From Gemmatimonadaceae bacterium (GTDB lineage: Bacteria; Gemmatimonadota; Gemmatimonadetes; Gemmatimonadales; Gemmatimonadaceae), in contig JBBEBQ010000018.1 in NCBI GenBank assembly GCA_040882285.1, forward strand, positions 248,001 through 312,000: DNA of 64,000 nt. Reading direction: 5' to 3'. Shown in pieces: positions 27,569 through 42,561 of this stretch (position 1 is the first letter of the stretch; every line of letters begins with the position of its first letter). The notes under the pieces are model-generated. The model saw only the letters and a list, made by a program, of their open reading frames with translations. It had not been told where the DNA came from and did not search any database. The position numbers and the translations under genes are program-made.

Positions 27569-28515
27569 GCGGGCACTGCGCCATCCTTCCGATCTTCGAC
27601 GACGACGAGCGCGAGTTCGCGCTCACCGATTACGAGAAGGGAATTCCGCGCTGGTGTCCCGGCTGCGGCGACCACTCGGTTCTCACGGCCGTAGAGAAGC
27701 TCCTGGTCGCCGAGCAGCTCAAGCCGGAGCAAACCGTGTTCGTGTCGGGAATCGGGTGCTCGAGCCGGTTCCCGCACTACCTCAAGACGTACGGGTTCCA
27801 CGGGCTGCACGGGCGCGCGTTGCCCGTCGCCACCGGCGTGAAGCTGCATCGTCCCGAGCTGGAAGTGTTCGTCGTGATGGGAGACGGGGACTGCTGCTCG
27901 ATAGGCGCCGCGCACTGGATTCACGCGATCCGCTACAACATGCGGATGGTCGTGCTGCTGCTCGACAACAGCATTTACGGCCTCACCAAGAAGCAGACAT
28001 CGCCGACGACGCCGCAGGGATTCAAGACGAACACGCAGCCGTTCGGAACTCCGTTGCCGCCGCTGAATCCGCTGACGACCACGCTCGGCACCACGAACGT
28101 GTCGTTCGTCGCGCAGACGGCGGAGTGGATTCCCACGCACCTGTACGCCACGATCCGAGCGGCCTACCGCCACCCCGGATTCGCCTTCGTTCGGATTCTC
28201 CAGCGCTGCCCCATGTACACGGAAGGGCTGTACAACGAGACCGTCAAGAACCCGGGAATGGTCGAGCTGCTGGTGCACGACGACGGCATTGTGCCGCCGG
28301 AGATCGACAAGATCTACACCAACCGGATCACCCACGATCCCGCCGATCTCGATTCAGCCCGCAGGCACGCCGAGGATTCGGACCGCGTACGGCTGGGTTT
28401 GTTCTACCGGAACGAGAGCCGCGCGCGGTACGACCTGCTGATGCGCCCGCCCAAAGTCACGAGCAGCGAGCGAATCGCTCTCCTCAACGAGGAGTTCGAC
28501 CACTATGCCGTCTGA
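27565..28515 (+). CDS. korB: 2-oxoacid:ferredoxin oxidoreductase, beta subunit
   Basis: A 316-aa TPP-binding subunit. IPRWCPGCGDHSVL holds Fe-S cysteines, VVMGDGDCCSIGAAHW is the TPP/Mg2+ motif, LLLDNSIYGLTKKQTSPTTP follows, and another cluster Cys lies in LQRCPMYTEG. Length is normal. sucCD, which uses succinyl-CoA, lies later in the window, and this fits 2-oxoglutarate as substrate, but pyruvate cannot be excluded from sequence alone. The end overlaps the next gene by 11 bases. Confidence 0.92.
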   Translation: MSGHCAILPIFDDDEREFALTDYEKGIPRWCPGCGDHSVLTAVEKLLVAEQLKPEQTVFVSGIGCSSRFPHYLKTYGFHGLHGRALPVATGVKLHRPELEVFVVMGDGDCCSIGAAHWIHAIRYNMRMVVLLLDNSIYGLTKKQTSPTTPQGFKTNTQPFGTPLPPLNPLTTTLGTTNVSFVAQTAEWIPTHLYATIRAAYRHPGFAFVRILQRCPMYTEGLYNETVKNPGMVELLVHDDGIVPPEIDKIYTNRITHDPADLDSARRHAEDSDRVRLGLFYRNESRARYDLLMRPPKVTSSERIALLNEEFDHYAV

Positions 28516-29488
28516 CGAGCGGGTGCTCTCGGCCCTGTCGGGTCTGCGCCCGGCAATCGATCGCTACCGCCTCGCGGCGTCCGGCACGCTGGAGCGGGCG
28601 CGAGCGATGCTCGCCTTCGAGCCCGGCCCGGGGCGGACGCGCGCGGCACTCGGCGAGTTCGCCGGCGGCCGCATAGACCCGGAGCGCTTCGCGCTGGTGT
28701 CGGCCGGCACGGATCCTCTCGACATGACCGGACGCGAAGTGGTCGAGCACGTCGTGGAGGTGATCGAGGACATCCTCGGCGCGCGCGATGAGCAGTTCTT
28801 CATTCCCGTCGGTCAGGCCGGCAATGCGGCCGAGACGATCCGCGCGAGACTCGCCGGACTGGGCGCCGCGCACGCGGCCGCGCGGATTCTCGACCTGGTG
28901 AAGCGGCACGGCTACGATCTCCTGCGGCACGGATCACCCTCGGACGGATATCCTTTCGAGCGATGGACCGCGGCCGAGCGCGCGCTCGCGCCGCCGCTGG
29001 TCGTCCGGCTCGACGGCTCCGCTCTCGACGCGCTCGAGCTCGCGCCGCTTGTCGATGGCTGCGTGCGACTGGTGCTCATCGTGGATGGGCCCGCCGCGCC
29101 GGCGCCCCTGGCGCGACTCGTATCGCCCGGCACTCTGATCGCGCAGGTGGACGACGCGAGCTTGCTCGCCGGGCTGGCTGAGTTCGACGGGCCCGCCGTC
29201 ATCGCGGTGATGCAGGGCCAGGAAGCCCGCTTCGTTCACGATCCGCGCGCGGGGACCGCGCCGTGGCAGCGCATCCGGGTGGACCGCATGCCAGCGGTGC
29301 CGCCGCGAAAGACGCTCGGCTCGCGGACCGCATGGCAACAGCGTGACGATCTGGCCCACCTCAAGGCGCTCGTCGAGCCGCCGAGCCTCGCGCATTCCGC
29401 GGCCGGCGCCGGCAATGGCCACGCCGATCCAACCGATCGTCTCACGGCCTGGCTGATCGAGCAATCGGGCCAGGCAGGCGTTGCATGA
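28505..29488 (+). CDS. Protein of unknown function between korB and rnfB
   Basis: A 327-aa protein that I do not recognise. No signal peptide or membrane segment is seen. Residues ~1-60 are helical. Residues ~75-160 include a Glu/Val-rich helix (REVVEHVVEVIEDIL) and a stretch with FFIPVGQAGNAAETIRARLA. Residues ~175-265 alternate hydrophobic strands and helices, with VRLVLIVDGPAAPAPLARLV, like a Rossmann-type domain. The last ~60 residues are low-complexity. It has few cysteines and no Fe-S motif. ATG 28505 overlaps korB by 11 bases and its stop is 6 bases before rnfB, so it belongs to the redox operon. A scaffold, assembly or regulatory role is possible but unproven. Confidence 0.75.
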   Translation: MPSDERVLSALSGLRPAIDRYRLAASGTLERARAMLAFEPGPGRTRAALGEFAGGRIDPERFALVSAGTDPLDMTGREVVEHVVEVIEDILGARDEQFFIPVGQAGNAAETIRARLAGLGAAHAAARILDLVKRHGYDLLRHGSPSDGYPFERWTAAERALAPPLVVRLDGSALDALELAPLVDGCVRLVLIVDGPAAPAPLARLVSPGTLIAQVDDASLLAGLAEFDGPAVIAVMQGQEARFVHDPRAGTAPWQRIRVDRMPAVPPRKTLGSRTAWQQRDDLAHLKALVEPPSLAHSAAGAGNGHADPTDRLTAWLIEQSGQAGVA

Positions 29489-29494
29489 TCACCG

Positions 29495-30337
29495 ATGGCT
29501 GACATCCTGATCGCGGTCTTCACCCTCGGCGGCGTCGGGCTCGTGTTCGGCACCCTCATAGCGACCGCCAACAAGCGGCTCTGGGTGTGGGAAGATCCGC
29601 GCGTCGACGTCGTCACGCAGATGCTGCCCAGCGCGAACTGCGGCGCCTGCGGCCTTCCCGGGTGCCGCGCGTTTGCCGAGCAGGCCGTGCAGGGCAAGGT
29701 GACTCCAGCACAGTGCACGGTCGCCGGCGAGGAGGCCCGCCAGCAGATCGCCGGCTACCTCGGCGTGGAAGCGGGAGAAGCCGTGAAGAACGTCGCGCGG
29801 CTGCTGTGCGCCGGCGGGCTCGACGTCGCGGGCTATCAGGCGGAGTACCGCGGACTCCCGACCTGCGCGGCCGCGGCGGCCGTCGCGGGCGGAGGCAAGG
29901 GCTGCGTCTGGGGCTGCCTCGGACTCGCGGACTGCGAGCGGGTGTGCGACTTCGACGCGATCCACATGAGCGAGACGGGACTGCCGGTCGTGGACGTCGA
30001 GAAGTGCACGGCATGCGGCGACTGCGTGGACGCGTGCCCCAAGGCGCTGTTCGAGCTGCGGCCGTTGAGCGCGGGGCTCCTGGTGCAGTGCAAGAACCTC
30101 GTCGCCGGCGACGAAGCGCTCGAGCAGTGCACGGTCGCTTGTACCGCATGCGCCAAGTGCGTGCAGGACGCGGTCGAAGGGCTGATCAGCGTAGCCAGCG
30201 GAGTCGCGGTGATCAACTACGACAGGATCGCGCTGGCCGAGCCGCGCGCGATCGAGCGGTGTCCGACCGGAGCCATAGTGTGGCTCGCGGGAGCGCAGTT
30301 CACGCACGAGCCCATGGCCGCGAGGCAGCTCCAATGA
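29495..30337 (+). CDS. rnfB: Rnf complex subunit RnfB
   Basis: A 280-aa Fe-S subunit taken to receive electrons from ferredoxin in the Rnf complex. Membrane anchor at residues ~3-24. The RnfB cluster site NCGACGLPGC starts with Cys49 and Cys52. After this come WGCLGLADCERVCDFDAI, CTACGDCVDACPK and a further set CTVACTACAKCVQ, so several [4Fe-4S] clusters are likely, as in the long clostridial RnfB rather than the short gamma-proteobacterial form. It is separated from the other rnf genes by the giant oxidoreductase that follows with an ATGA overlap. Confidence 0.9.
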   Translation: MADILIAVFTLGGVGLVFGTLIATANKRLWVWEDPRVDVVTQMLPSANCGACGLPGCRAFAEQAVQGKVTPAQCTVAGEEARQQIAGYLGVEAGEAVKNVARLLCAGGLDVAGYQAEYRGLPTCAAAAAVAGGGKGCVWGCLGLADCERVCDFDAIHMSETGLPVVDVEKCTACGDCVDACPKALFELRPLSAGLLVQCKNLVAGDEALEQCTVACTACAKCVQDAVEGLISVASGVAVINYDRIALAEPRAIERCPTGAIVWLAGAQFTHEPMAARQLQ

Positions 30338-33300
30338 AGCTCTGGCCCAAGTCGAGGAGCAAGTCCACTCCCCCGGCCTCGTACCCCTACCCGGGCGAGC
30401 TGCGGGCGCTCGACGGCGGGAGCGCCGTCGTGGAGATGGAAATCGCGGCAAGCGAGGCGGCGGGCGCTTATCCGATCACGCCCTCCACCCAGATGGGCGA
30501 AGGGTGGGCGGTAGCGGTCGCGGACGGCAAGCGCAACGTGCACGGCCGGCGCCTCCTTTTCTTCGAGCCCGAGGGCGAGCACGCCGCGGCGGCCGTCACC
30601 GCGGGCATGTCGATGGCCGGCCTGCGCGCGACGAACTTCTCGAGTGGGCAGGGAATCGTGTACATGCACGAGTCGCTGTACGCCGCGGTCGGCAAGCGAC
30701 TCACCTATGTGCTGAACATCGCCGCCCGCGCGATCACCAAGCACGCGCTGAACGTGCACGCCGGCCACGACGACTACCACGCCGTGGACGACACCGGCTT
30801 CTTTCAGCTCTTCGCGAAAGACGTACAGGAATGCGCCGACCTCAATCTCGTCGCGCATCGCGTGGCCGAGCTGTCGCTCAACCCGGGCATCATCGCGCAG
30901 GACGGATTCCTCACGAGCCACGTGATCGAGTCGCTGCGGCTTCCCGAGCGCGAGCTCATCAAGACCTATCTCGGCGACCCCGCGGACCTGATCGAGTCAC
31001 CGACGCCCGCTCAGCGCATGGTATTCGGCGACACGCGCCGCCGGATACCGGAAGCGTTCGATCTCGACTATCCGGCGATGCTCGGCGTCGTGCAGAACCA
31101 GGACAGCTACGCGCAGGGCGTGGCCGCGCAGCGGCCGTTCTACTTCGACCACATCGCCGAGCTGACGGACCGCGCCTTCGACGAGCTTGCCGCGCTCACC
31201 GGGCGGCGCTACGCGCGCGCCCGCGGTTACCGGGCCGACGACGCCGAATGGCTGATAGTCGGACAGGGCTCGGTCGTGTCCAACGCCGAAGCCGTCGCCG
31301 ATCACCTGCGCGCGACGCGCGGACTCAAAGTCGGCGTCGTCAATCTCACGATGTTCCGGCCGTTTCCCACGGACCTGCTGGTCGATTTGCTCGCCGGCAA
31401 GAAAGGCGTCGTGGTGATGGAGCGCACCGACCAGCCGCTGGCGGTGGATCCTCCACTGCTGCGCGAGATCCGCGCGGCCATGTCGAAGGCGGTGGAGAAC
31501 GGACGCGCCGCTCCCGGCGCGCCGCCGCCGTACGCCGGGATCGCGCCGCTGGCCGCGGAGCTGGTGCCCGATTTCTTCACCGCGTGCTTCGGGCTCGGCA
31601 GCCGCGACCTGCAGCCTGGTCACATCATCGCGGCCGTGGAGAACATGCTCCCGGGCAGCGCGCGCACGCGGCAGTTCTACCTCGGGATCGACTTCGTGCG
31701 GCCGCGCACGCGACTGCCCAAGCTGCAGATCTGGCAGGAGCAGCTGCTCGAGAGCTATCCGCTCCTCGCCGACCTCGCGGTCGAGTCATCGAGCGAAGTA
31801 AACCTGCTGCCGCCCGGCTCCACTGCGCTGCGCATCCATTCGGTGGGCGGCTGGGGCGCGATCACGATGGGCAAGACCCTCGCGATGACGGCGTTCGAGC
31901 TGCTCGGCCTGAGCATCAAGGCGAATCCAAAGTACGGCTCGGAAAAGAAAGGACAGCCGACGACGTTCTACGCGGTGCTCGCGCACGAGCCGGTCCGGCT
32001 CAACTGCGAGCTGCGCCACGTGGACGTCGTGCTCTCGCCGGATCCGAACGTGTTCCGCCACAGCGATCCGCTCGAAGGGCTGGCCGAAGGCGGCGTGTTC
32101 GTGGTGCAGAGCGATCTCGCGCCCGAATCGTTCTGGCAGACGCTGCCGGCCAAGGCGCGTCACACGATTCGCGATCGCGGCATCAAGCTGTACGTCCTCG
32201 ACGCGTTCGTGATCGCGCGGCAGGAAGCGTCCGACGCCGATCTGCGCTTCCGGATGCAGGGCGCCGCGTTCATGGGCGCGTTCTTCGCGACCTCGTCGCT
32301 GCTCGCCAGCGAAGGCTCGAGCGAAGCCTCGCTCTTCGAGGGGATCCGCAAGCAGCTCACCAAGAAGTTCGGGTCGAAGGGCGAGCGCGTAGTGGAAGAC
32401 AACGTCCGGGTCATACGTCGCGGGTTCGACGAAGTCCGCGCGGTGGAAATCGCCGCGGGCGACGTGCCCGACGAGCCGGGAAAGGTGCCGCGGATGCCGG
32501 CGCTGCTCGATTCGCCCGGCGCCGAGCGGGGCCCCGGCAACCAGGGCCGGTTCTGGGAGCAGGTGTGCGCGCCGTGCCAGTTGGGCCAGGACGGAATCGC
32601 CGACCCCTTCGCGGCCATCAGCACCGTGCCGGCCGTGACGGGTGCCGTGCGCGACATGAGCGGCGTGCGGCTCGAGGTCCCCGAGTTCATCGCCGATAAA
32701 TGCAGCGGCTGCGGCCAGTGCTGGGTGCAGTGTCCGGACTCGGCGATTCCCGGACTCGTCAACAGCGTGGAGGATGTGCTGGTCGCCGCGATAGACGCGT
32801 CGGTGAACGGGCTGCGCATGGATCGCGTTCGACCCATCGTCAAGCACTGGGCCCGCGAAGCGCGGAAGATCATCGATCAGAATCCCGCGGCACCGGTCGC
32901 CGACGCGTGGGAGCAGTCCTACCGCACGGTCGTGGACAAGCTCGGGTGGGACGCAGACCGGAAAGCAGCCGCAGAGCCGGAGTTCCTCGCGGCCAATGCC
33001 CGGCTCGCCGAATTCCCGCTCGCCCGAACCAAGCCGTTCTACGACGCGCTCGAAGGAAAGGCGAAAGGCACGGGCGGGCTGCTCTCCATCACGGTCAACC
33101 CCGAGGCGTGCAAGGGCTGCAATCTGTGCGTGGAGGTCTGCCCCGACGGCGCGCTGCTGACCGTGAAGCAGGACGAGCCCGGCCTCGAGAGATTGCGCCG
33201 CAACTGGAGCATCTGGAACAGGCTGCCCGACACCGACGACAGGTACGTGAACGTGTCGAGCGTGGACGAGGGGATCGGCGTGCTGTCGTCGCTGCTGCTC

Positions 33301-35358
33301 AAGAAGGCCACCTATCGCTCCATGGTCGGCGGTGACGGAGCCTGCATGGGCTGCGGCGAGAAGACGGCCGTCCACCTCATCGTCTCCGCGATCCATGCGT
33401 GGATGCAGCCGCACGTGGCGAAGCACGTCGCGCGCCTCACCGAGCTCATCGCCGCGCTGGATAAGCAGGCGCGTGATCTGGTGTCGTCGGCGGCCGATCT
33501 CGACGCCGCGGCGTCCGCGAGCGGCTCGGTCGCGGTTCCGATCGACGCGGCCAGGGCCGAGCGGCTGCGCCTGCTCAATTCCGCGCTCCGCGATCTGCGC
33601 GACATCAAGTGGCGCTACGTCGAGGGACCCAGTGGCAAGGGCCGCGCGTCGCTCGGAATGACGAACAGCACGGGCTGCTCCTCGGTGTGGGGGAGCACGT
33701 ATCCGTACAACCCGTATCCGTTCCCCTGGGTCAACCACCTCTTCCAGGATTCGCCGTCAGTCGCCATAGGCCTGTTCGACGCCCACATGCGCAAGATGGC
33801 GGACAACTTCACCGCGGTCCGGCGGGCGGCGCTGCTCGCGTCGGGCGAATACGACGCGGCGCGCGACGAGCCGTTGATCGGTGATCTCGAATGGACCCGG
33901 TTCACCGACGAGGAGTTCGCGCTCTGCCCGCCGATCGTCGCCATGGGCGGCGACGGAGCGATGCTCGACATCGGATTCCAGAACCTTTCGCGCCTGCTCG
34001 CATCGGGGAAGCCGATTCGCGTGGTGGTGCTCGACACGCAGGTGTACTCGAACACCGGCGGCCAGGCGTGCACGTCGGGGTACACCGGCCAGGTCGCGGA
34101 CATGTCGGCGTGGGGCAAGTCGCAGCACGGAAAAACCGAGACGCGCAAGGAGCTGGCGTTGCTCGCGATCGCGCATCGCGGCGTGTACGTGCACCAGAGT
34201 TCACAGGCCGCGGCCTCGCACCTCATCTCGGGGGTGCTGCGCGGGCTGCAGAAGCGGCGCCCCGTGCTCATCAACGTGTACACGCCGTGTCCGGTGGAGC
34301 ACGGACTCGCCGACGACTGGGCGCAGCACGCGGCGCGCCTCGCGCTCGAGAGCCGCGCGTTCCCGTTCCTCACGTACGACCCCGACGGCGGCCCGAGCTT
34401 CGCCGACTGCCTGAGTCTCGACGGTAATCCGTCGCCCGATGGCGAGTGGCCGTCGTACGCGCTCAAGTACCTGGACGAGGCCGGCGCCGAGCAGACGATG
34501 GAGCTTCCACTCACCATCGCCGACTGGGCCGCCACCGAGACGCGGTTCAAGCAACACTTCTCCGAGCTGCCCGCGTCCGACTCGGGCGACGAGATGCCGT
34601 TCCACGAGTATCTCGCCGCCGGTGCGGACGACCGCGCCGAACGCACTCCCTTCATCTGGGCGCTAACTAAGGACCGGAAGCTCCGGCGACTGAAGGTGTC
34701 GGGCGAGATGGTCGGGCTCGCCCAGGAGCGGCTGCAGTTCTGGTCGCAGCTCCGGCAGCTCGCCGGCCTCGAGATCCCGGTGACAGTGCACGACACCGTC
34801 GTGGCCGAGATGGAATCGGAGTTCGAGCGGCGCGCCGACGCGCTGCGGCTCGAATACGAGGCGAAGATGGCGGAGCTGCAGAGCAGCCTTCCGGCCAAGA
34901 TCGCGCGCCGGATGGCGGAAGGGTTGGTCAGGAGCGCGGGCAGCTCGGCCGCGGTGGCCGACCTGCTTGCCTCGCTGCCACCTCCCGGTAAGTCGTCGGG
35001 CAACGGCTCCGCGCCGGTCGTCGCCGCGGCCCCAGCGCCGGTCGCCACGCCGGCACCAGTCGCCGCGCCTGCGGCGGCCGCGGCCGCAGTGGCCGACGAC
35101 GAGCCGCTCGTGCTCGAGGCGTATATCGATTCCGCCAGCTGCACGACGTGCAACGAGTGCACGGACCTGAACAACAGGTTGTTCGCGTACAACGCCGACA
35201 AGCAGGCGTACATCAAGGACGTCACTGCCGGCACGTTCCAGCAGCTCGTCACCGCGGCCGAGCGCTGCCCCGTGGCCATCATCCATCCCGGCACGCCGCT
35301 CAACGCGAAGGAGAAGGATCTCGCGAAGTGGGTGAAGCGCGCCGAGAAGTTCAACTGA
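30334..35358 (+). CDS. nifJ: Giant fused pyruvate:ferredoxin oxidoreductase with C-terminal ferredoxin-like domain
   Basis: A 1,674-aa single-chain PFOR (pyruvate + CoA to acetyl-CoA + CO2 with low-potential electrons; reversible). Order: Pyr domain with AAGAYPITPSTQMGE (~40-55); core domain; gamma domain (SVGGWGAITMGKTLAMTAF, ~508-526); two-cluster ferredoxin domain (Cys790/793/796/800 and Cys926/929/932/936); TPP domain with CMGCGEK (Cys1004/1007), STGCSS (Cys1115), GGDGAMLDIG (~1205) and Cys1319 as likely proximal-cluster ligands. A helical hairpin is inserted at ~1020-1085. Beyond a normal ~1,180-aa PFOR come a coiled-coil-like stretch (~1460-1545), an Ala/Pro linker (~1555-1590) and a ferredoxin-like domain with Cys1603/1606/1609 and Cys1646. 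ATG 30334 overlaps the rnfB stop. Confidence 0.9.
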   Translation: MKLWPKSRSKSTPPASYPYPGELRALDGGSAVVEMEIAASEAAGAYPITPSTQMGEGWAVAVADGKRNVHGRRLLFFEPEGEHAAAAVTAGMSMAGLRATNFSSGQGIVYMHESLYAAVGKRLTYVLNIAARAITKHALNVHAGHDDYHAVDDTGFFQLFAKDVQECADLNLVAHRVAELSLNPGIIAQDGFLTSHVIESLRLPERELIKTYLGDPADLIESPTPAQRMVFGDTRRRIPEAFDLDYPAMLGVVQNQDSYAQGVAAQRPFYFDHIAELTDRAFDELAALTGRRYARARGYRADDAEWLIVGQGSVVSNAEAVADHLRATRGLKVGVVNLTMFRPFPTDLLVDLLAGKKGVVVMERTDQPLAVDPPLLREIRAAMSKAVENGRAAPGAPPPYAGIAPLAAELVPDFFTACFGLGSRDLQPGHIIAAVENMLPGSARTRQFYLGIDFVRPRTRLPKLQIWQEQLLESYPLLADLAVESSSEVNLLPPGSTALRIHSVGGWGAITMGKTLAMTAFELLGLSIKANPKYGSEKKGQPTTFYAVLAHEPVRLNCELRHVDVVLSPDPNVFRHSDPLEGLAEGGVFVVQSDLAPESFWQTLPAKARHTIRDRGIKLYVLDAFVIARQEASDADLRFRMQGAAFMGAFFATSSLLASEGSSEASLFEGIRKQLTKKFGSKGERVVEDNVRVIRRGFDEVRAVEIAAGDVPDEPGKVPRMPALLDSPGAERGPGNQGRFWEQVCAPCQLGQDGIADPFAAISTVPAVTGAVRDMSGVRLEVPEFIADKCSGCGQCWVQCPDSAIPGLVNSVEDVLVAAIDASVNGLRMDRVRPIVKHWAREARKIIDQNPAAPVADAWEQSYRTVVDKLGWDADRKAAAEPEFLAANARLAEFPLARTKPFYDALEGKAKGTGGLLSITVNPEACKGCNLCVEVCPDGALLTVKQDEPGLERLRRNWSIWNRLPDTDDRYVNVSSVDEGIGVLSSLLLKKATYRSMVGGDGACMGCGEKTAVHLIVSAIHAWMQPHVAKHVARLTELIAALDKQARDLVSSAADLDAAASASGSVAVPIDAARAERLRLLNSALRDLRDIKWRYVEGPSGKGRASLGMTNSTGCSSVWGSTYPYNPYPFPWVNHLFQDSPSVAIGLFDAHMRKMADNFTAVRRAALLASGEYDAARDEPLIGDLEWTRFTDEEFALCPPIVAMGGDGAMLDIGFQNLSRLLASGKPIRVVVLDTQVYSNTGGQACTSGYTGQVADMSAWGKSQHGKTETRKELALLAIAHRGVYVHQSSQAAASHLISGVLRGLQKRRPVLINVYTPCPVEHGLADDWAQHAARLALESRAFPFLTYDPDGGPSFADCLSLDGNPSPDGEWPSYALKYLDEAGAEQTMELPLTIADWAATETRFKQHFSELPASDSGDEMPFHEYLAAGADDRAERTPFIWALTKDRKLRRLKVSGEMVGLAQERLQFWSQLRQLAGLEIPVTVHDTVVAEMESEFERRADALRLEYEAKMAELQSSLPAKIARRMAEGLVRSAGSSAAVADLLASLPPPGKSSGNGSAPVVAAAPAPVATPAPVAAPAAAAAAVADDEPLVLEAYIDSASCTTCNECTDLNNRLFAYNADKQAYIKDVTAGTFQQLVTAAERCPVAIIHPGTPLNAKEKDLAKWVKRAEKFN

Positions 35359-35362
35359 GCCC

Positions 35363-36706
35363 ATGACCGGCTTCCGGACCGCGCTCCGGACTGGATTCCG
35401 GCACGGGGTGCACCCGGCCGAGGAGAAGGGGCTCACGAGCCATCTCCCCATCCGGCGCATGCCCTATCCGGCCGAGCTGATCCTCCCTCTGCGGCAGCAC
35501 GCGGGCAAGCCGGCGAAGCTGTGCGTCAAGGTCGGGGACATAGTCGAGCGCGGCGACAAGATCGCGGAAGCCGACGGCTACATGTCGGTCCCGGTTCATG
35601 CGTCGGCGGCGGGCACCGTGGTTGGCGTTGAGCTGTGGCCGCACCCCGACGGATCGATGGCGGAGGCGGTGCGCATCGAGGTGGCGCAGTACGCTCCGCA
35701 CGTTCCACGTCCCCGGCTCGTGCCGCATTGGGAGGGACTGACGCCGGAGCAGGTCGTGTCGGCGGTGCAGCAGGCGGGAGTGGTAGGGCTCGGAGGCGCG
35801 GCGTTTCCCACGCACGTGAAGCTGGCGCCGCCCAAGGAATTTCCGGTGCACACGCTGATCATCAACGGCGCCGAGTGCGAGCCGTATCTCACCTCCGATC
35901 ACCGGACGATGGTCGAGTATCCGGAGCGGGTCCACTTCGGCGTGCGGGTGATGATGCACGCGATCGGCGTGCGGCGGTGCGTGATCGGAGTCGAGCGCAA
36001 CAAGCCGGACGCGATCGAAGCGCTCCGGCGAACCGTGCCGACCGACCTGGACGTGACGATTCTCCCGCTCACGGTCAAGTATCCGCAGGGCGCGGAGAAG
36101 ATGCTCATCCACGCCGTGACCGGCGTCGAGGTAGCGTCGGGGAAGCTGCCCGTCACCGCGGGAGTCGTGGTGCAGAACGTCGGCTCGGTCGCGGCCATCG
36201 CGGAGGTGTTCGAGACGGGGCTGCCGCTGGTGGAGAGGATCGTCACGATATCGGGCCACGGGCTGAGAAAGCCCGCGAACCTCATCGTTCCCGTGGGCAC
36301 CAGGCTGCGCGACGTGCTCGCGTTCTGCGACGGAATGACCGCGGACGCCGCCGAGGTGATCGTCGGCGGACCGATGATGGGTCTGGCGCAGGCCAATCTC
36401 GACGCGCCGGTAGTCAAAGGGACGTCCGGCGTCGTCGTGCTGGAGAAATCCGAGACGCGCAGCGCGAAGGTGTATCCGTGCGTGCATTGCGGGAAGTGCG
36501 CGGACGCATGCCCGGTCTTTCTCAATCCGTCGCTGCTCGGCGATCTCGCGCGCGTGCAGCGGTACGAAGAGATGGCCGCTCTCCACCTGGCCGACTGCAT
36601 GCTCTGCGGCTCGTGCGCGTACGTCTGCCCGTCGAACATCCCGCTCGCGCAGCTCTTCCAGGCGAGCAAGGTCGCGCTGCGGCGCGCCGCGGCGGCTGTC
36701 GCGTGA
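35363..36706 (+). CDS. rnfC: Rnf complex subunit RnfC
   Basis: A 447-aa NADH/flavin-binding subunit, cytoplasmic side. Residues ~10-40 are the RnfC barrel start (GVHPAEEKGLTSHLPIRRMP). GLGGAAFPTHVKLAPPKE and INGAECEPYLTSDHRTM form the NuoF-like nucleotide/FMN-binding region. Two [4Fe-4S] motifs follow, CVHCGKCADACP and CMLCGSCAYVCPSNIPLAQL. Length is near the usual minimum. It starts 4 bases after the oxidoreductase and overlaps rnfD by 4 bases. Confidence 0.95.
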   Translation: MTGFRTALRTGFRHGVHPAEEKGLTSHLPIRRMPYPAELILPLRQHAGKPAKLCVKVGDIVERGDKIAEADGYMSVPVHASAAGTVVGVELWPHPDGSMAEAVRIEVAQYAPHVPRPRLVPHWEGLTPEQVVSAVQQAGVVGLGGAAFPTHVKLAPPKEFPVHTLIINGAECEPYLTSDHRTMVEYPERVHFGVRVMMHAIGVRRCVIGVERNKPDAIEALRRTVPTDLDVTILPLTVKYPQGAEKMLIHAVTGVEVASGKLPVTAGVVVQNVGSVAAIAEVFETGLPLVERIVTISGHGLRKPANLIVPVGTRLRDVLAFCDGMTADAAEVIVGGPMMGLAQANLDAPVVKGTSGVVVLEKSETRSAKVYPCVHCGKCADACPVFLNPSLLGDLARVQRYEEMAALHLADCMLCGSCAYVCPSNIPLAQLFQASKVALRRAAAAVA

Positions 36707-37698
36707 GCACCGACAAGCTCGTCGTCACCGCCTCGCCGCACGTGCGGTCGGCCGATTCCACGCCGCGCATCATGTGGCACGTGGTGGGGAGCCTCGTCCC
36801 GGTGATCCTCGCCGCAGCGTGGTTCTTCGGGGTGAGCGCGCTGCTCCAGGTCGCTACCGCGGTCCTGGTCTCGCTGGTGACGGAGCGCGCGACGGGGAAG
36901 GGTGGAGCGATCGCCGACGGATCGGCCACCATCACCGGGATCCTGCTCGGGCTTTCGCTGCCCGCCGGTTTTCCGCTGTGGATGACGGCGCTCGGCGCCG
37001 CGTTCGCCATCGTGTTCGGCAAGCAGGTTTGGGGCGGCCTCGGACAGAACGCGTTCAACCCGGCGCTCGTCGGCCGCGCGTTCCTGCAGGGCGCATTCCC
37101 GGTGGCGATAACCACCTGGCCGTCGGCCGGCGGAGGATTCTTCACTCTCCGCGGCGACTTGTTTGCGCTCCCGTTCGCCCGTCCGCAGCCGTACGCGGAG
37201 ACATCCGCGACTCCCCTCGGACTGTTCAAGTTCGAGGGCGAAGGGACGTCGCTCGGCAATCTCGTCATCGGCAATACCGGCGGCTCGCTCGGCGAGACCG
37301 CGGCGCTGGTAATTCTCGCGGGCGGCATCTACCTCGCTTGGCGCGGCTACCTCAACTGGCGGATTCCGGTCAGCGTCATAGCCACGGTCGCCGCGGTCAG
37401 CGCGGTCGTGCGCCTGCTCGACGCGAGCGCGCCGGATCCGTGGTTCATGGTCTTCTCCGGCGGGCTGATGCTCGGCGCCGTGTATATGGCGACCGACATC
37501 GTCACCGCGCCCATCACGAATGCCGGCAGATGGGTCTTCGGCGCGGGCATCGGAATCCTCGTGGTCGTTATCCGGCTATGGGGCGGGCTCGCAGAAGGCG
37601 TGATGTACGCGATTCTCTTCATGAACGCCCTCACGCCGTTCATCAACAGGGCAACACAGCCGCGCGTGTTCGGGACGCGGCTTCGCACCGCTACATGA
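36703..37698 (+). CDS. rnfD: Rnf complex subunit RnfD
   Basis: A 331-aa membrane subunit with about ten hydrophobic segments. It begins LVVTASPHVRSADSTPRIMW, typical of RnfD/NqrB, and has WGGLGQNAFNPALVGRAFL. SATP at residues 168-171 puts Thr170 at the position flavinylated with FMN by ApbE in this family. GTG 36703 overlaps rnfC; the stop overlaps the antiporter-like gene by 4 bases. Confidence 0.93.
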   Translation: MSTDKLVVTASPHVRSADSTPRIMWHVVGSLVPVILAAAWFFGVSALLQVATAVLVSLVTERATGKGGAIADGSATITGILLGLSLPAGFPLWMTALGAAFAIVFGKQVWGGLGQNAFNPALVGRAFLQGAFPVAITTWPSAGGGFFTLRGDLFALPFARPQPYAETSATPLGLFKFEGEGTSLGNLVIGNTGGSLGETAALVILAGGIYLAWRGYLNWRIPVSVIATVAAVSAVVRLLDASAPDPWFMVFSGGLMLGAVYMATDIVTAPITNAGRWVFGAGIGILVVVIRLWGGLAEGVMYAILFMNALTPFINRATQPRVFGTRLRTAT

Positions 37699-39119
37699 TC
37701 AAGCCAACCAAACCCATGCCTTCATTGCGCATTGCACTGCTTCTCGCCGTTATCCTGCCAAGCCCGGCGTCCGCCCACGACGGCACCACCGGCTTTACCG
37801 GCGCGTGCATCGGTCCGGTCCCGATCGAGTTCATCCTCTTCGGGATCGTCCTCGCGGGCGTCGCCGCGTTCCATCTGCACACGCTCCGCATCGCGCTCTT
37901 CGGCGCCATCGGCATCGCGCTGTACAAGATCATCGCGTCGCCGTTCGGCACCGGGGGAGGTGTCGGCGGCTTCGGTCTGCATCTGGCGCACGAGTGGGTG
38001 ATCCTCATCAACCTGCTGCTGCTGCTGGTCGGCTTCGTGCTCCTCGCGAGGCACTTCGAGGCGAGCCAGCTGCCCGCCGTCCTGCCGCGGTTCCTGCCCG
38101 ACGGCTGGCTGGGCTGCTTCGTGCTGCTGGCGTTGGTCTTCGTCCTGTCGAGCTTCCTGGACAACATCGCGGCGGCGATGATCGGCGGTGCCATCGCTCA
38201 CACCGTGTTCAAGGGCAAGGTCCATATCGCGTATCTGGCCGGTCTCGTCGCGGCGGCGAACGCGGGCGGCGCCGGCAGCGTGATCGGAGATACCACCACC
38301 ACGATGATGTGGATCGCCGGTATCGCGCCGCTGGAGGTGGCGCATGCCGCCGCCGGCTCGATCGTCGCGCTGCTGATCTTCGGCGTGCCGGCATCGCTGA
38401 CGCAGCAGCGGTACTCACCCATTCAACAGCACGCCTCCCCCGATGCCCGGGTAGACTGGATGCGTGTCGGCACGGTCGGCGCGATCCTGGCGGCCGCGGT
38501 CGGGATGAACGTCCTGATCAACACCCGCTTCACCGAGCTGTCGGACAGTTTTCCGTTCCTGGGCGCGGCCGTATGGGGCGCGCTGCTGCTGACGGCCGGA
38601 CTGCGCACGCCCCAATGGAGCCTGGTGCCGAACGCGCTGAAGAGCTCGGCGTTTCTGCTCTCCCTCGTATTGATCGCGTCGATGATGCCCGTGGAGCGCC
38701 TGCCGGCCGCGTCCTGGCTCTCGGCGCTCGGGCTCGGGTTCGCGTCGGCGGTGTTCGACAACATCCCGCTCACGGCGCTCGCGCTCAAGCAGGGCGGCTA
38801 CGACTGGGGTGTCCTGGCGTACGCCGTCGGCTTCGGCGGCTCGATGATCTGGTTCGGATCGTCGGCCGGCGTGGCGCTCTCGAGCATGTACCCGGATGCG
38901 CGCTACGCGGGCCGCTGGCTGCGGCAGGCGTGGTACGTTCCGGTGGCGTACGTGGCGGGGTTCTTCGTCGTCGTGCTCCTGCTCGGCTTCAATCCGGGGA
39001 GCGTGCCGAGGAACAGCCAGGCTGCTGCCCGGCGCCCCGCGCCGGAGGCAGTCGTCACCACACCGGCAAAAGTGTCTACGGTGTCGCTGACGGACACCAC
39101 CGCCGGCCCGCGTCGGTGA
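37695..39119 (+). CDS. Putative Na+/H+ antiporter (NhaD/ArsB ion-transporter superfamily)
   Basis: A 474-aa membrane protein placed between rnfD and rnfG. A possible signal or first helix (residues ~9-27) ends ASAHDG, then about eleven hydrophobic segments. Two related halves carry SSFLDNIAAAMIGGAIAHTV and ASAVFDNIPLTALALKQGG, the repeated Asp-Asn motif of NhaD/ArsB transporters, plus SVIGDTTTTMMWIAG. The last ~45 residues are soluble and low-complexity. ATG 37695 overlaps rnfD by 4 bases. Location suggests exchange of the ion moved by Rnf, but the substrate is not proven. Confidence 0.8.
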   Translation: MIKPTKPMPSLRIALLLAVILPSPASAHDGTTGFTGACIGPVPIEFILFGIVLAGVAAFHLHTLRIALFGAIGIALYKIIASPFGTGGGVGGFGLHLAHEWVILINLLLLLVGFVLLARHFEASQLPAVLPRFLPDGWLGCFVLLALVFVLSSFLDNIAAAMIGGAIAHTVFKGKVHIAYLAGLVAAANAGGAGSVIGDTTTTMMWIAGIAPLEVAHAAAGSIVALLIFGVPASLTQQRYSPIQQHASPDARVDWMRVGTVGAILAAAVGMNVLINTRFTELSDSFPFLGAAVWGALLLTAGLRTPQWSLVPNALKSSAFLLSLVLIASMMPVERLPAASWLSALGLGFASAVFDNIPLTALALKQGGYDWGVLAYAVGFGGSMIWFGSSAGVALSSMYPDARYAGRWLRQAWYVPVAYVAGFFVVVLLLGFNPGSVPRNSQAAARRPAPEAVVTTPAKVSTVSLTDTTAGPRR

Positions 39120-39144: not shown

Positions 39145-39810
39145 GTGAACGGCCAGGGCGCGATCTCGGTGCCGGCCGCCGCTCCTCCGGGGTCGTCGAC
39201 TCCCGCGTGGCGGCTACTCGGAACGCTGACGCTCGCCGGAGCTTTTGCCGGCGCGCTCATCGCGCTCGTGTATCAGATGACGCTGCCCTCGATCGAGCGG
39301 TACGCCGGCGCCAAGATCTCGGGCGCGGTGCGCGAAGTGCTGGGCGCGCCCGCCAGGCTGGATACGCTGTATCTCGTCGGAGACAAGCTCACCAGAACGT
39401 CTCCCGGCGCCGGGGCTCGCAACGTCTCGCGGGCGTTCGTCGGCTTCGACGAGAAGGGAGCTCGCACCGGCGTCGCGGTCGAAGCCGCCGAGCCCGGGTT
39501 CGCCGACCTGGTGCTGCTGATGGTCGGCTTCAACCCCGATACGCGCGCCATCACCGGCTTCGTCGTGCTGGGCCAAAAGGAAACTCCGGGGCTCGGCGAC
39601 AAGATCAAGCGCGACAGCTCTTTCGTGAGTCAGTTCCACGGCAAGGTCGCTCCGCTCAGGGGCGCGAAGAGCGAGACCGCCGACGCCAGCACGGTGCGGA
39701 CGATCACCGGCGCGACGATCTCCTCGCGCGCGGTCATCCAGATCATCAACAACGCCGTGGCGCTCTGGCAGCCGCGGGTCGCCGCGTTCGACGCGGGGGA
39801 AGGCCAATGA
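39145..39810 (+). CDS. rnfG: Rnf complex subunit RnfG
   Basis: A 221-aa subunit with one N-terminal membrane anchor (~23-48) and a periplasmic FMN domain. ITGATISSRAV near the C-terminus places Thr191 as the flavinylated residue (S/T-GAT motif). VVLGQKETPGLGDKI is the other conserved RnfG/NqrC stretch. GTG 39145 lies 25 bases after the antiporter-like gene, one of the widest gaps in the operon. It overlaps rnfE by 4 bases. Confidence 0.93.
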   Translation: MNGQGAISVPAAAPPGSSTPAWRLLGTLTLAGAFAGALIALVYQMTLPSIERYAGAKISGAVREVLGAPARLDTLYLVGDKLTRTSPGAGARNVSRAFVGFDEKGARTGVAVEAAEPGFADLVLLMVGFNPDTRAITGFVVLGQKETPGLGDKIKRDSSFVSQFHGKVAPLRGAKSETADASTVRTITGATISSRAVIQIINNAVALWQPRVAAFDAGEGQ

Positions 39811-40484
39811 CCGCCCCGACGACGACCGTCTCGACGGCAGCGTTCGTTCCCGGCGCGCCGCCGCCCGCGCCGCTGTGGTCGGACGTGGCGCGCGGCATCG
39901 CGCGCGAGAATCCGGTGTTCGTGCAGATGCTCGGCCTGTGCCCGGCGATGGCCGTCAGCAACATGCTCACCAACGGTCTTGCCATGGGGATCGCCACGAC
40001 GTTCGTGCTTACGGCGTCGAGCTTCATGATCTCGATGCTGCGTAAGTACATCGCGACCGAGGTGCGGATAGCGGCGTACATCCTCACCATCGCGACGTTC
40101 GTGACGGTGGCCGACCTCGTTCTCGCGGCGACCTTTCCGGTGACCTCCGAGGCACTGGGACCGTTCGTTCCGCTGATCGTCGTCAACTGCCTGATCCTCG
40201 GGCGGGCGGAAGCGTTCGCCAGCAAGGTGCGGCCCGTCCGCGCGCTGGCCGACGCGGTCGGCATGGGCGCCGGCTTCACGCTCGCGCTTTCGACCATCAG
40301 CGCCATCCGCGAGCTGCTGGGCAGCGGATCGCTCTTCGGCGTCAACGTGCTCGGTCCGGCGTTCGAGCCTTGGGTGGTGATGGTGATGCCGGCGGGCGGA
40401 TTCCTTACCCTCGGTGTCGTGCTGCTGCTGATGGGGTGGTACGGCACGTTGAAGGCCCAGCGCGTGAAGGCGGCTGCCGCATGA
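39807..40484 (+). CDS. rnfE: Rnf complex subunit RnfE
   Basis: A 225-aa membrane subunit with six hydrophobic segments. It carries the RnfE/NqrD pattern ENPVFVQMLGLCPAMAVSN with the conserved Cys near the membrane Fe centre shared with RnfA, and VNCLILGRAEAFA for the second inverted half. ATG 39807 overlaps rnfG; the end overlaps rnfA by 4 bases. The N-terminal ~25 residues are a Pro/Thr-rich extension. Confidence 0.93.
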   Translation: MTAPTTTVSTAAFVPGAPPPAPLWSDVARGIARENPVFVQMLGLCPAMAVSNMLTNGLAMGIATTFVLTASSFMISMLRKYIATEVRIAAYILTIATFVTVADLVLAATFPVTSEALGPFVPLIVVNCLILGRAEAFASKVRPVRALADAVGMGAGFTLALSTISAIRELLGSGSLFGVNVLGPAFEPWVVMVMPAGGFLTLGVVLLLMGWYGTLKAQRVKAAAA

Positions 40485-41056
40485 GCAATCTCGCCTGGAT
40501 TTTTCTCTCCACGGTCCTCGTCAACAACTTCACGCTGGCGATGTTCCTCGGACTGTGTCCGTTCTTCGGCGTCACCTCCAAGGTCGGCAACGCCTGGCGG
40601 CTGGGCGCCGCGAACATGTTCGTGCTGCTGATCACCGCGGTGAGCGTCTGGTTCCTGAACGCGTTCGTTCTCGCGCACACGCCCTTTCTGCGCACGATCG
40701 CCTTCATCGTCGTCATCGCGTCGTCGGTGCAGATCGTGGAGATGATCATCAAGAAGTTCCTGCCCGTTCTCTTCCGCGAGCTCGGCATCTTCCTGCCGCT
40801 TATCACCACCAACTGCGCCATCCTGGGACTCGGCCTCTTTCAGACGAGCCGGGGCTACGGCCTGGCGGAAGGTCTCGCCTTCGCGCTCGGCGCCGGCTTC
40901 GGCCTCACGCTGGCGCTGACGCTGATGGCGTCCATCCGCGAGCGGATCGAGGTGGCCGACGTGCCGGCGATGGCGCGCGGGATGGGACTCGTGCTCGTCG
41001 TGGCGTCGTGCCTGTCCATGGCCTTCATGGGGTTCGCCGGGATGGGAACCAGCTGA
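40481..41056 (+). CDS. rnfA: Rnf complex subunit RnfA
   Basis: A 191-aa membrane subunit with six segments. VNNFTLAMFLGLCPFFGV and TTNCAILGLGLF hold the conserved Cys pair that, with RnfE, ligates an Fe centre inside the membrane. The length is exactly that of the family. ATG 40481 overlaps rnfE; the stop TGA shares its last base with the ATG of the small peptide gene. Confidence 0.95.
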   Translation: MSNLAWIFLSTVLVNNFTLAMFLGLCPFFGVTSKVGNAWRLGAANMFVLLITAVSVWFLNAFVLAHTPFLRTIAFIVVIASSVQIVEMIIKKFLPVLFRELGIFLPLITTNCAILGLGLFQTSRGYGLAEGLAFALGAGFGLTLALTLMASIRERIEVADVPAMARGMGLVLVVASCLSMAFMGFAGMGTS

Positions 41057-41199
41057 TGGGCAGCATTCTCGGAATCATCGCCTGCGCCGCTCTCTTCGCG
41101 CTGTACGGCATGGTGCGCCATCGCGGCTGCACCGGCCATTGCGCGGGTTGCGCGGGAGAGTGCGGGCGTCACACAGAGGGAGATTACGATGGCGCGTGA
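41056..41199 (+). CDS. 47-aa Cys-rich single-span membrane peptide in the Rnf operon
   Basis: MGSILGIIACAALFALYGMV forms one membrane helix, then RHRGCTGHCAGCAGECGRH gives C-X3-C-X2-C-X3-C (Cys25, 29, 32, 36) on what should be the cytoplasmic end, followed by an acidic tail. The TGATG coupling to rnfA and the 11-base overlap with apbE argue strongly that it is translated. The layout resembles the small NqrM and FeoB-associated Cys-rich proteins; NqrM is needed for Fe-centre maturation in Na+-NQR. A similar role for RnfA/RnfE is an inference. Confidence 0.75.
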   Translation: MGSILGIIACAALFALYGMVRHRGCTGHCAGCAGECGRHTEGDYDGA

Positions 41200-42190
41200 C
41201 CCGATCCTCCGCCGGCACCCCGACCGGCGCGAATTCCTGACCATCGGCGTAGGCGTGTTCGTAGCGCTCTCGCTGCCGGCGTCGCTGCGCCGGTACACAC
41301 CGCTGGTGCGGCGCAGGATCCCGTTGATGGGAACAATCGCCGAGATACAGGTGGCGGACCGTGACGAGCGCTTCGCCGCGCGCGCGATCGACGCGGCTGT
41401 CTCCGAGCTGCGGTGGGTGGAGAGCACGATGACCCGCTTCCGGAGCGATTCGGACATCGGTCGGGCCAATCTCGGCGCCGGCCGTGATGGCGTGCGCGTC
41501 ACCGCCCAGTCCGGCGCGGTGATCGCGACCGCGCTGCGCGTTGCGTCGGCGAGCGACGGCCGGTTCGATCCCGCCATCGGAGCCGTGTCGGAGCTGTGGG
41601 ACGTTCTCAACAGGCACGAGCCCCCCGCGCCCGACCGCGTTCAGCGGCTCGCGGCGCGCGACATGTGGCGGAAGGTGGACGTGGCGGCGGACGCGGGCTC
41701 CGATGGAGCGCTGGTTCGCTTCAATGATCCCGATCTCCGGCTCGATCTCGGAGCGATCGCCAAGGGCTACGCCATCGACCGCGCCGCCGGCGCGCTGCGC
41801 AGCCGCGGCGTGCGCCACGCGATAATCACGGTCGGCGGCGACCTGTACGCGCTTGGCCGGTCGCCGGAAGGGGAGCCGTGGACCGTCGGCATCCGCTCGC
41901 CGCACGACCGGGACGAGCTCGTCTCGACCCTGCACGTGAGCGACCGCGCCGTTGCCACCTCGGGCGATTACGAGCGCTTCTTCAGCTGGCGCGGCCACCG
42001 GTACCACCACTTGATCGATCCGCTGACGGCCGCGCCGCGAAGCACGCCGTTTCACAGCGCGACGGTGCTCGCCGACCGGTGCATGGACGCGGACGCCGCG
42101 GCCACGGCGATATTCGGGCTGCCCCGGGACGCCGCGCTCGCGATCGCGCGAAGGCTCGACACTACCGCCGACGTGATTCCATTGACCTGA
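41189..42190 (+). CDS. apbE: FAD:protein FMN transferase ApbE
   Basis: A 333-aa enzyme that attaches FMN to Thr of RnfG and RnfD. The N-terminus has a twin-arginine-like signal (RRHPDRREFLTIGVGVFVAL), so it should act outside the inner membrane. Conserved parts: MGTIAEIQV, LDLGAIAKGYAIDRAA, TVGGDLYALG, SGDYERFF and HHLIDPLTAAP, and near the end DADAAATAIF. Length is normal. ATG 41189 overlaps the small peptide gene. Confidence 0.94.
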   Translation: MARDPILRRHPDRREFLTIGVGVFVALSLPASLRRYTPLVRRRIPLMGTIAEIQVADRDERFAARAIDAAVSELRWVESTMTRFRSDSDIGRANLGAGRDGVRVTAQSGAVIATALRVASASDGRFDPAIGAVSELWDVLNRHEPPAPDRVQRLAARDMWRKVDVAADAGSDGALVRFNDPDLRLDLGAIAKGYAIDRAAGALRSRGVRHAIITVGGDLYALGRSPEGEPWTVGIRSPHDRDELVSTLHVSDRAVATSGDYERFFSWRGHRYHHLIDPLTAAPRSTPFHSATVLADRCMDADAAATAIFGLPRDAALAIARRLDTTADVIPLT

Positions 42191-42204: not shown

Positions 42205-42561
42205 ATGAAGACAGTCAACGCGTACTGCTCGGCGTGCGATCAGGAGGTGAGGCTCGTCCTCACCGACGAGCCGATCGCCGATGATCCCTCGCCGATACAC
42301 GACCGCGAGGTCGTGTGTCTCGAGATCGGCGAGCATTGCACCGGCGCGATGTGTCCGATCGGCGCGGTTCCGCCGGTCGTGATGGCGGCGCGGCTCGTCC
42401 GGAACGGACTGCAGACGACGATGCAGCCGATCATGACGGCGATGTGCCCCGCGTGCGACGGCCGCGCGGATTTCGTGATCGTGAGCAGGGAGTACTGCAT
42501 CTGCTCGGTGTGCGGCACGACGTCGCGGCGGGAGAGCATCTTTCCAAAGGCTGTGTGCTGA
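42205..42561 (+). CDS. Cys-rich zinc-ribbon-like protein of unknown function
   Basis: A 118-aa soluble protein, last gene of the redox run, 14 bases after apbE. It starts MKTVNAYCSACDQEV and has CPAC and CICSVC in the C-terminal half, so two C-X2-C knuckles could form a zinc ribbon; further Cys lie in EHCTGAMCPIG and at the final residue. I do not recognise the family. A metal-binding or Fe-S assembly link to the operon is possible but only by position. Confidence 0.65.
   Translation: MKTVNAYCSACDQEVRLVLTDEPIADDPSPIHDREVVCLEIGEHCTGAMCPIGAVPPVVMAARLVRNGLQTTMQPIMTAMCPACDGRADFVIVSREYCICSVCGTTSRRESIFPKAVC

Follow-up and report, generated by a model that had tools for sequence, protein, structure and literature searches.

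A 47-aa frame directly downstream of rnfA was found to be a real, conserved coding gene that defines a new Rnf-linked protein family. The encoded protein has four Cys residues after a single helix; it is not universal in Rnf and marks one clade of these complexes, found in at least three phyla. By analogy with NqrM of the Na+-NQR system, the protein may be a dedicated accessory factor of this clade that hands iron to the [2Fe-2S] centre of RnfA/RnfE, a function to which we assign about an even chance.

The gene was examined within a 64,000-nucleotide stretch of a Gemmatimonadaceae genome (i.e. the window). This stretch carries a complete rnf cluster in the order rnfB-PFOR-rnfC-rnfD-NhaD-like gene-rnfG-rnfE-rnfA-small gene-apbE-Cys-rich ORF, with the following features:

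28505-29488, + strand: 327-aa ORF without a Pfam match, between 2-oxoacid oxidoreductase genes and rnfB
29495-30337, + strand: rnfB
30334-35358, + strand: pyruvate:ferredoxin-type oxidoreductase (PFOR) with a C-terminal ferredoxin-like domain, within the rnf operon between rnfB and rnfC
35363-36706, + strand: rnfC
36703-37698, + strand: rnfD
37695-39119, + strand: NhaD-like antiporter gene in the rnfD/rnfG interval (TIGR00775, far below cut-off)
39145-39810, + strand: rnfG
39807-40484, + strand: rnfE, with two of the four Fe-ligand Cys (C45 and C128)
40481-41056, + strand: rnfA, with the other two Fe-ligand Cys (C26 and C112)
41056-41199, + strand: 47-aa single-helix four-Cys membrane protein, a proposed Rnf accessory or Fe-centre maturation factor, sequence MGSILGIIACAALFALYGMVRHRGCTGHCAGCAGECGRHTEGDYDGA
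41189-42190, + strand: apbE, flavin transferase of Rnf maturation, whose start overlaps the small gene
42205-42561, + strand: 118-aa ORF containing several CxxC motifs, without a confident Pfam assignment

The TGA stop codon of rnfA (41054-41056) shares a base with the ATG of the small gene (41056-41058), producing a TGATG overlap, and the apbE ATG (41189-41191) lies inside the small gene upstream of its TGA stop (41197-41199), giving an 11-base overlap. Cys residues 25, 29, 32 and 36 form a C-X3-C-X2-C-X3-C motif, and a fifth Cys falls within the helix. The window sequence thus bears out the helix, Cys motif and both overlaps described in an earlier, sequence-only reading of this DNA. In many rnf loci of Gemmatimonadota, a homologue of the 118-aa CxxC ORF comes after apbE or rnfA, and rnfC is also preceded by a nifJ-like gene in KSB1-type and Bacteroidota representatives of the clade described below (L241, L242 and L244).

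The sequence-only reading had suggested looking for similar small frames after rnfA in other genomes. RnfA/NqrE matches were obtained in 69 of 298 Gemmatimonadota genomes and the DNA around rnfA was examined for one-helix ORFs with 3–5 Cys after the helix, adjoining rnfA (or, in genome G079, apbE). Six f11-family loci, seven loci of NQR type and a single truncated contig were omitted, which left 61 Rnf loci, the window included. A Cys-rich one-helix ORF was present in 58 of these 61 non-f11 loci; the carriers include the window, two loci read from stop-to-stop frames (L011 and L038) and G079, where the gene is beside apbE. In a background scan of 2.04 Mb of the window genome, only 5 of 3950 stops of frames of at least 200 aa (0.13%, window gene included) were followed by a helix-plus-Cys ORF. 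Divergence per site was 0.44 for synonymous and 0.13 for non-synonymous changes (27 pairs with at least 70% protein identity), demonstrating that the small gene is under purifying selection. A chance ORF, or a frame that is not a gene, has small size in its favour; the divergence values and the background rate rule it out, conservation across three phyla also speaks against it, and its residual probability is negligible.

Conservation extends to the number of Cys residues more than to their arrangement. All four Cys are invariant in an alignment of 26 sequences (A1) and exactly four follow the helix in 57 of the 62 listed proteins, with some members having three. The spacing varies: Cx3Cx2Cx3C is the commonest form (23/55), and others are found (e.g. 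Cx2Cx8Cx2C). Lack of a conserved Cys pattern among relatives, which the sequence-only reading would have taken as a refutation, is thus not observed; the residues themselves are kept, their exact spacing is not. A constant number with variable spacing is more in keeping with a metal carrier than with a fixed redox cluster. Of 54 scanned loci, 29 have the rnfA stop and the start of the small gene overlapping as ATGA and nine as TGATG. NCBIfam contained no match for the window protein and no family matching more than one of 26 relatives; such a gene is therefore easily missed, as the sequence-only reading had supposed. A PDB search with profile A1 also produced no match.

The distribution of the gene was examined with profile A1 (26 members) and by inspection of rnf loci in other phyla. 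Profile matches were observed in 44 of the 298 Gemmatimonadota genomes, with 43 at an rnf locus and a single weak match elsewhere (G158, E 4.6e-4); by this profile, nearly all genomes of the phylum without Rnf lack the gene. No small-gene ORF was detected within the examined flanks of 80 Rnf loci drawn from a wide range of other phyla; of three pattern hits there, one resembles a ferredoxin, one the start of RnfB and one a chance frame. None of 30 examined loci from the phylum of G308 (reached via an Acidobacteriota-type genome) has the gene, and the phylum of G299 yielded no RnfA above the chosen threshold. In KSB1 (the phylum of G302), four loci with RnfA 56–58% identical to that of the window carry the gene and more distant loci do not. 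The same was observed in Bacteroidota, where the two closest loci (RnfA 54–56%) are carriers and the other 18 are not.

An RnfA tree of 162 rows was constructed by a quick method with SH-aLRT support and without bootstrap. All 62 carriers were located in one clade of 66 rows (SH-aLRT 99, branch 0.59), which spans Gemmatimonadota, the KSB1-type phylum and two Bacteroidota; none of the 96 rows outside this clade is a carrier. The small-gene label required five changes on the tree as compared to about 50 with shuffled labels, and RnfA of the clade has the marker residues R40, N60, F98 and Q121. The proposed tie to Rnf is thereby supported, carriers being found at rnf and within one RnfA clade. 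Four clade rows lack the gene. Three of these (L029, L066 and L067) are second rnf copies in genomes whose other rnf locus carries it (G283, G096 and G119) and the fourth, L194, sits on a 6.1-kb contig. In L066 and L067, the rnfE-rnfA pair stands without a match to rnfG, rnfD or rnfC in the stretch examined, and the next ORF in L067 resembles NuoA by eye. RnfA of the f11 loci (L005-L010) groups outside the carrier clade, and in L005 and L009 rnfA is followed instead by the frame of a small, soluble-looking protein. The small gene adjoins rnfA in carriers of all three phyla. It is usually beside apbE in Gemmatimonadota, and no apbE was found near it in the stretches examined for KSB1-type and Bacteroidota carriers. 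The rearranged operon of G079 (order rnfG-small gene-apbE-rnfE-rnfA) keeps the gene beside apbE and near rnfE/rnfA.

The one-helix, four-Cys build was judged from hydropathy and Cys count. A single-sequence AlphaFold model, with helices at residues 4–17 and 23–40, was of low confidence (pLDDT 65, pTM 0.32) and was set aside. The 12 residues after the helix contain 96 K/R as compared to 11 before it, with 52 proteins having more after the helix and none fewer. The Cys tail is therefore predicted to be cytoplasmic, giving a putative N-out/C-in orientation. Nearly all loci retain the full set of four Fe-ligand Cys in RnfA/RnfE, indicating that the client of a putative iron-delivery factor exists. 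The tail would transiently bind Fe(II) or a cluster in formation before passing it on to the four RnfA/RnfE Cys, giving rise to the intramembrane [2Fe-2S] centre; translational coupling to rnfA would ensure that the small protein is made beside its client.

The model for such a role is NqrM (DUF539, PF04400), a maturation factor of Na+-NQR that was predicted by Kostyrko and co-workers, as cited in PMC6209661 and PMC12174285, to deliver Fe to NqrD/NqrE. NqrM resembles the small Rnf protein in having one helix and four Cys and in being encoded beside apbE, and its NqrD/NqrE client is homologous to RnfE/RnfA. In the NQR operons of Gemmatimonadota, apbE is followed by the gene for an NqrM-type protein that is built in the same way. 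The main argument for a maturation role is this analogy of position and build, i.e. apbE and a small Cys membrane protein beside D/E-type subunits, as in NQR. There are differences in gene position, as the small gene belongs to an rnf operon and lies between rnfA and apbE rather than after apbE, and in sequence, as the NqrM-type proteins of the phylum have a GSCGG...C-x-C...C signature unlike that of the small Rnf protein. Homology to NqrM, for which alignment had been suggested by the sequence-only reading, was not recognisable by HMM or profile comparison. PF04400 gave no hit among the 26 A1 members or the window protein; in a control with two NqrM-type proteins from the phylum, one scored 21.3 bits (cut-off 22) and the other had no hit, indicating that this model is of limited sensitivity here. 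Comparison of A1 with the NqrM-type proteins of the phylum (A3) in hhalign produced a probability of 60% over 36 columns, mostly helix. A PF04400 search of 61 genomes had no match even in NQR genomes and is thus uninformative on the presence of NqrM.

Several observations run against iron loading. Rnf loci sampled from other clades need the same centre and have no such gene near rnfA, so the need would be clade-specific or met otherwise, perhaps by RseC. Genome G079 retains the gene despite loss of the second Fe-ligand Cys of its RnfA (L069, a long branch in the tree), where C112 is changed to Ser (TTNC to ASNS). The gene is absent from the three second-copy loci and L194, and KSB1-type and Bacteroidota carriers lack apbE in the stretches examined. 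The sequence-only reading had also stated that no such factor is generally assigned to Rnf. In favour of iron loading, NqrM is given for NQR in a 2025 review that lists no counterpart for RNF (PMC12174285). The statement nevertheless overlooked RseC and RnfF, two Cys-containing membrane proteins with a link to Rnf/Rsx function (PMC11729352, PMC9124969); neither is known to load iron. E. coli needs RseC, whose Cys are cytoplasmic and which interacts with RsxB/RsxD, for Rsx function. RnfF of Rhodobacter is a combination of RseC-like and ApbE-like parts (PMC11729352).

The main rival to iron loading is that the small protein is an Rnf assembly, stability or regulatory factor in the place of RseC, which we consider unlikely. 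RseC/MucC (PF04246) and RnfF share with the small protein a membrane location, a cytoplasmic Cys motif and a tie to Rnf/Rsx function. Of 18 sister-clade Bacteroidota loci, nine encode RseC beside rnf. RseC was not found near rnf in the stretches examined for small-gene clade loci; the RseC profile detected nothing in 2.04 Mb (71%) of the window genome. This absence of RseC from the clade rests, however, on the surroundings of rnf and on that part of one genome. The N-terminal domain of RseC binds an Fe-S cluster (PMC11729352) and deletion of rseC abolishes Rnf-dependent autotrophy in C. ljungdahlii (PMC9124969). Against a substitution, no sequence relation between the two proteins was found, PF04246 having no hit for the window protein or the A1 members, and RseC has two helices preceded by its Cys domain whereas the small protein has one helix followed by Cys. 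Substitution for RseC and iron loading overlap because RseC itself may serve Fe-S assembly. Tentatively, and with somewhat less than an even chance, the small protein is the clade's own Fe-centre maturation factor, without detectable sequence relation to NqrM and replacing RseC, and would be the first such factor with an assignment to this centre in RnfA/RnfE.

Were the protein a small stoichiometric subunit in this Rnf clade (e.g. an anchor that binds metal or an additional site for electron transfer), this would explain why presence of the gene is nearly invariant with the clade, and R40, N60, F98 and Q121 of RnfA could form a contact. RnfH of Azotobacter RNF1 is a comparable extra protein limited to some Rnf, differing in being a cytoplasmic subunit without a cofactor (PMC12174285). 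The variable Cys spacing, the three-Cys members and the second-copy loci without the gene argue against a subunit, as do the solved Rnf complexes, which lack one but come from other clades (PMC12174285), making this possibility improbable. It is quite improbable that the protein belongs to PF12669, acts in iron uptake or in iron handling more generally and is situated in the rnf operon by chance. This 'FeoB-associated' family, of unknown function (PMC8749426), has an architecture like that of the small Rnf protein and was the only Pfam family matched by the window protein (E 3.9e-5, 24.3 bits; cut-off 27). It was also the sole recurrent Pfam match of the A1 members (15/26 at E up to 1), and the G079 counterpart passes the cut-off with 28.4 bits, such that relatedness to PF12669 is borderline. 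The small gene is, however, encoded with rnf and not with feoB and, by profile A1, is missing from nearly all genomes without Rnf. FeoB_C had no match in the window genome, and FeoB was undetected in this and 14 more of the 62 carrier genomes searched, indicating that the FeoB name does not describe the small protein.

As the gene follows one Rnf clade almost without exception, it offers a single-gene test of insertion of the [2Fe-2S] centre, and it matters for heterologous Rnf production. It is also a marker of an Rnf clade with a link to genes for pyruvate:ferredoxin oxidoreductase, and it suggests possible roles for PF12669 and RseC proteins.
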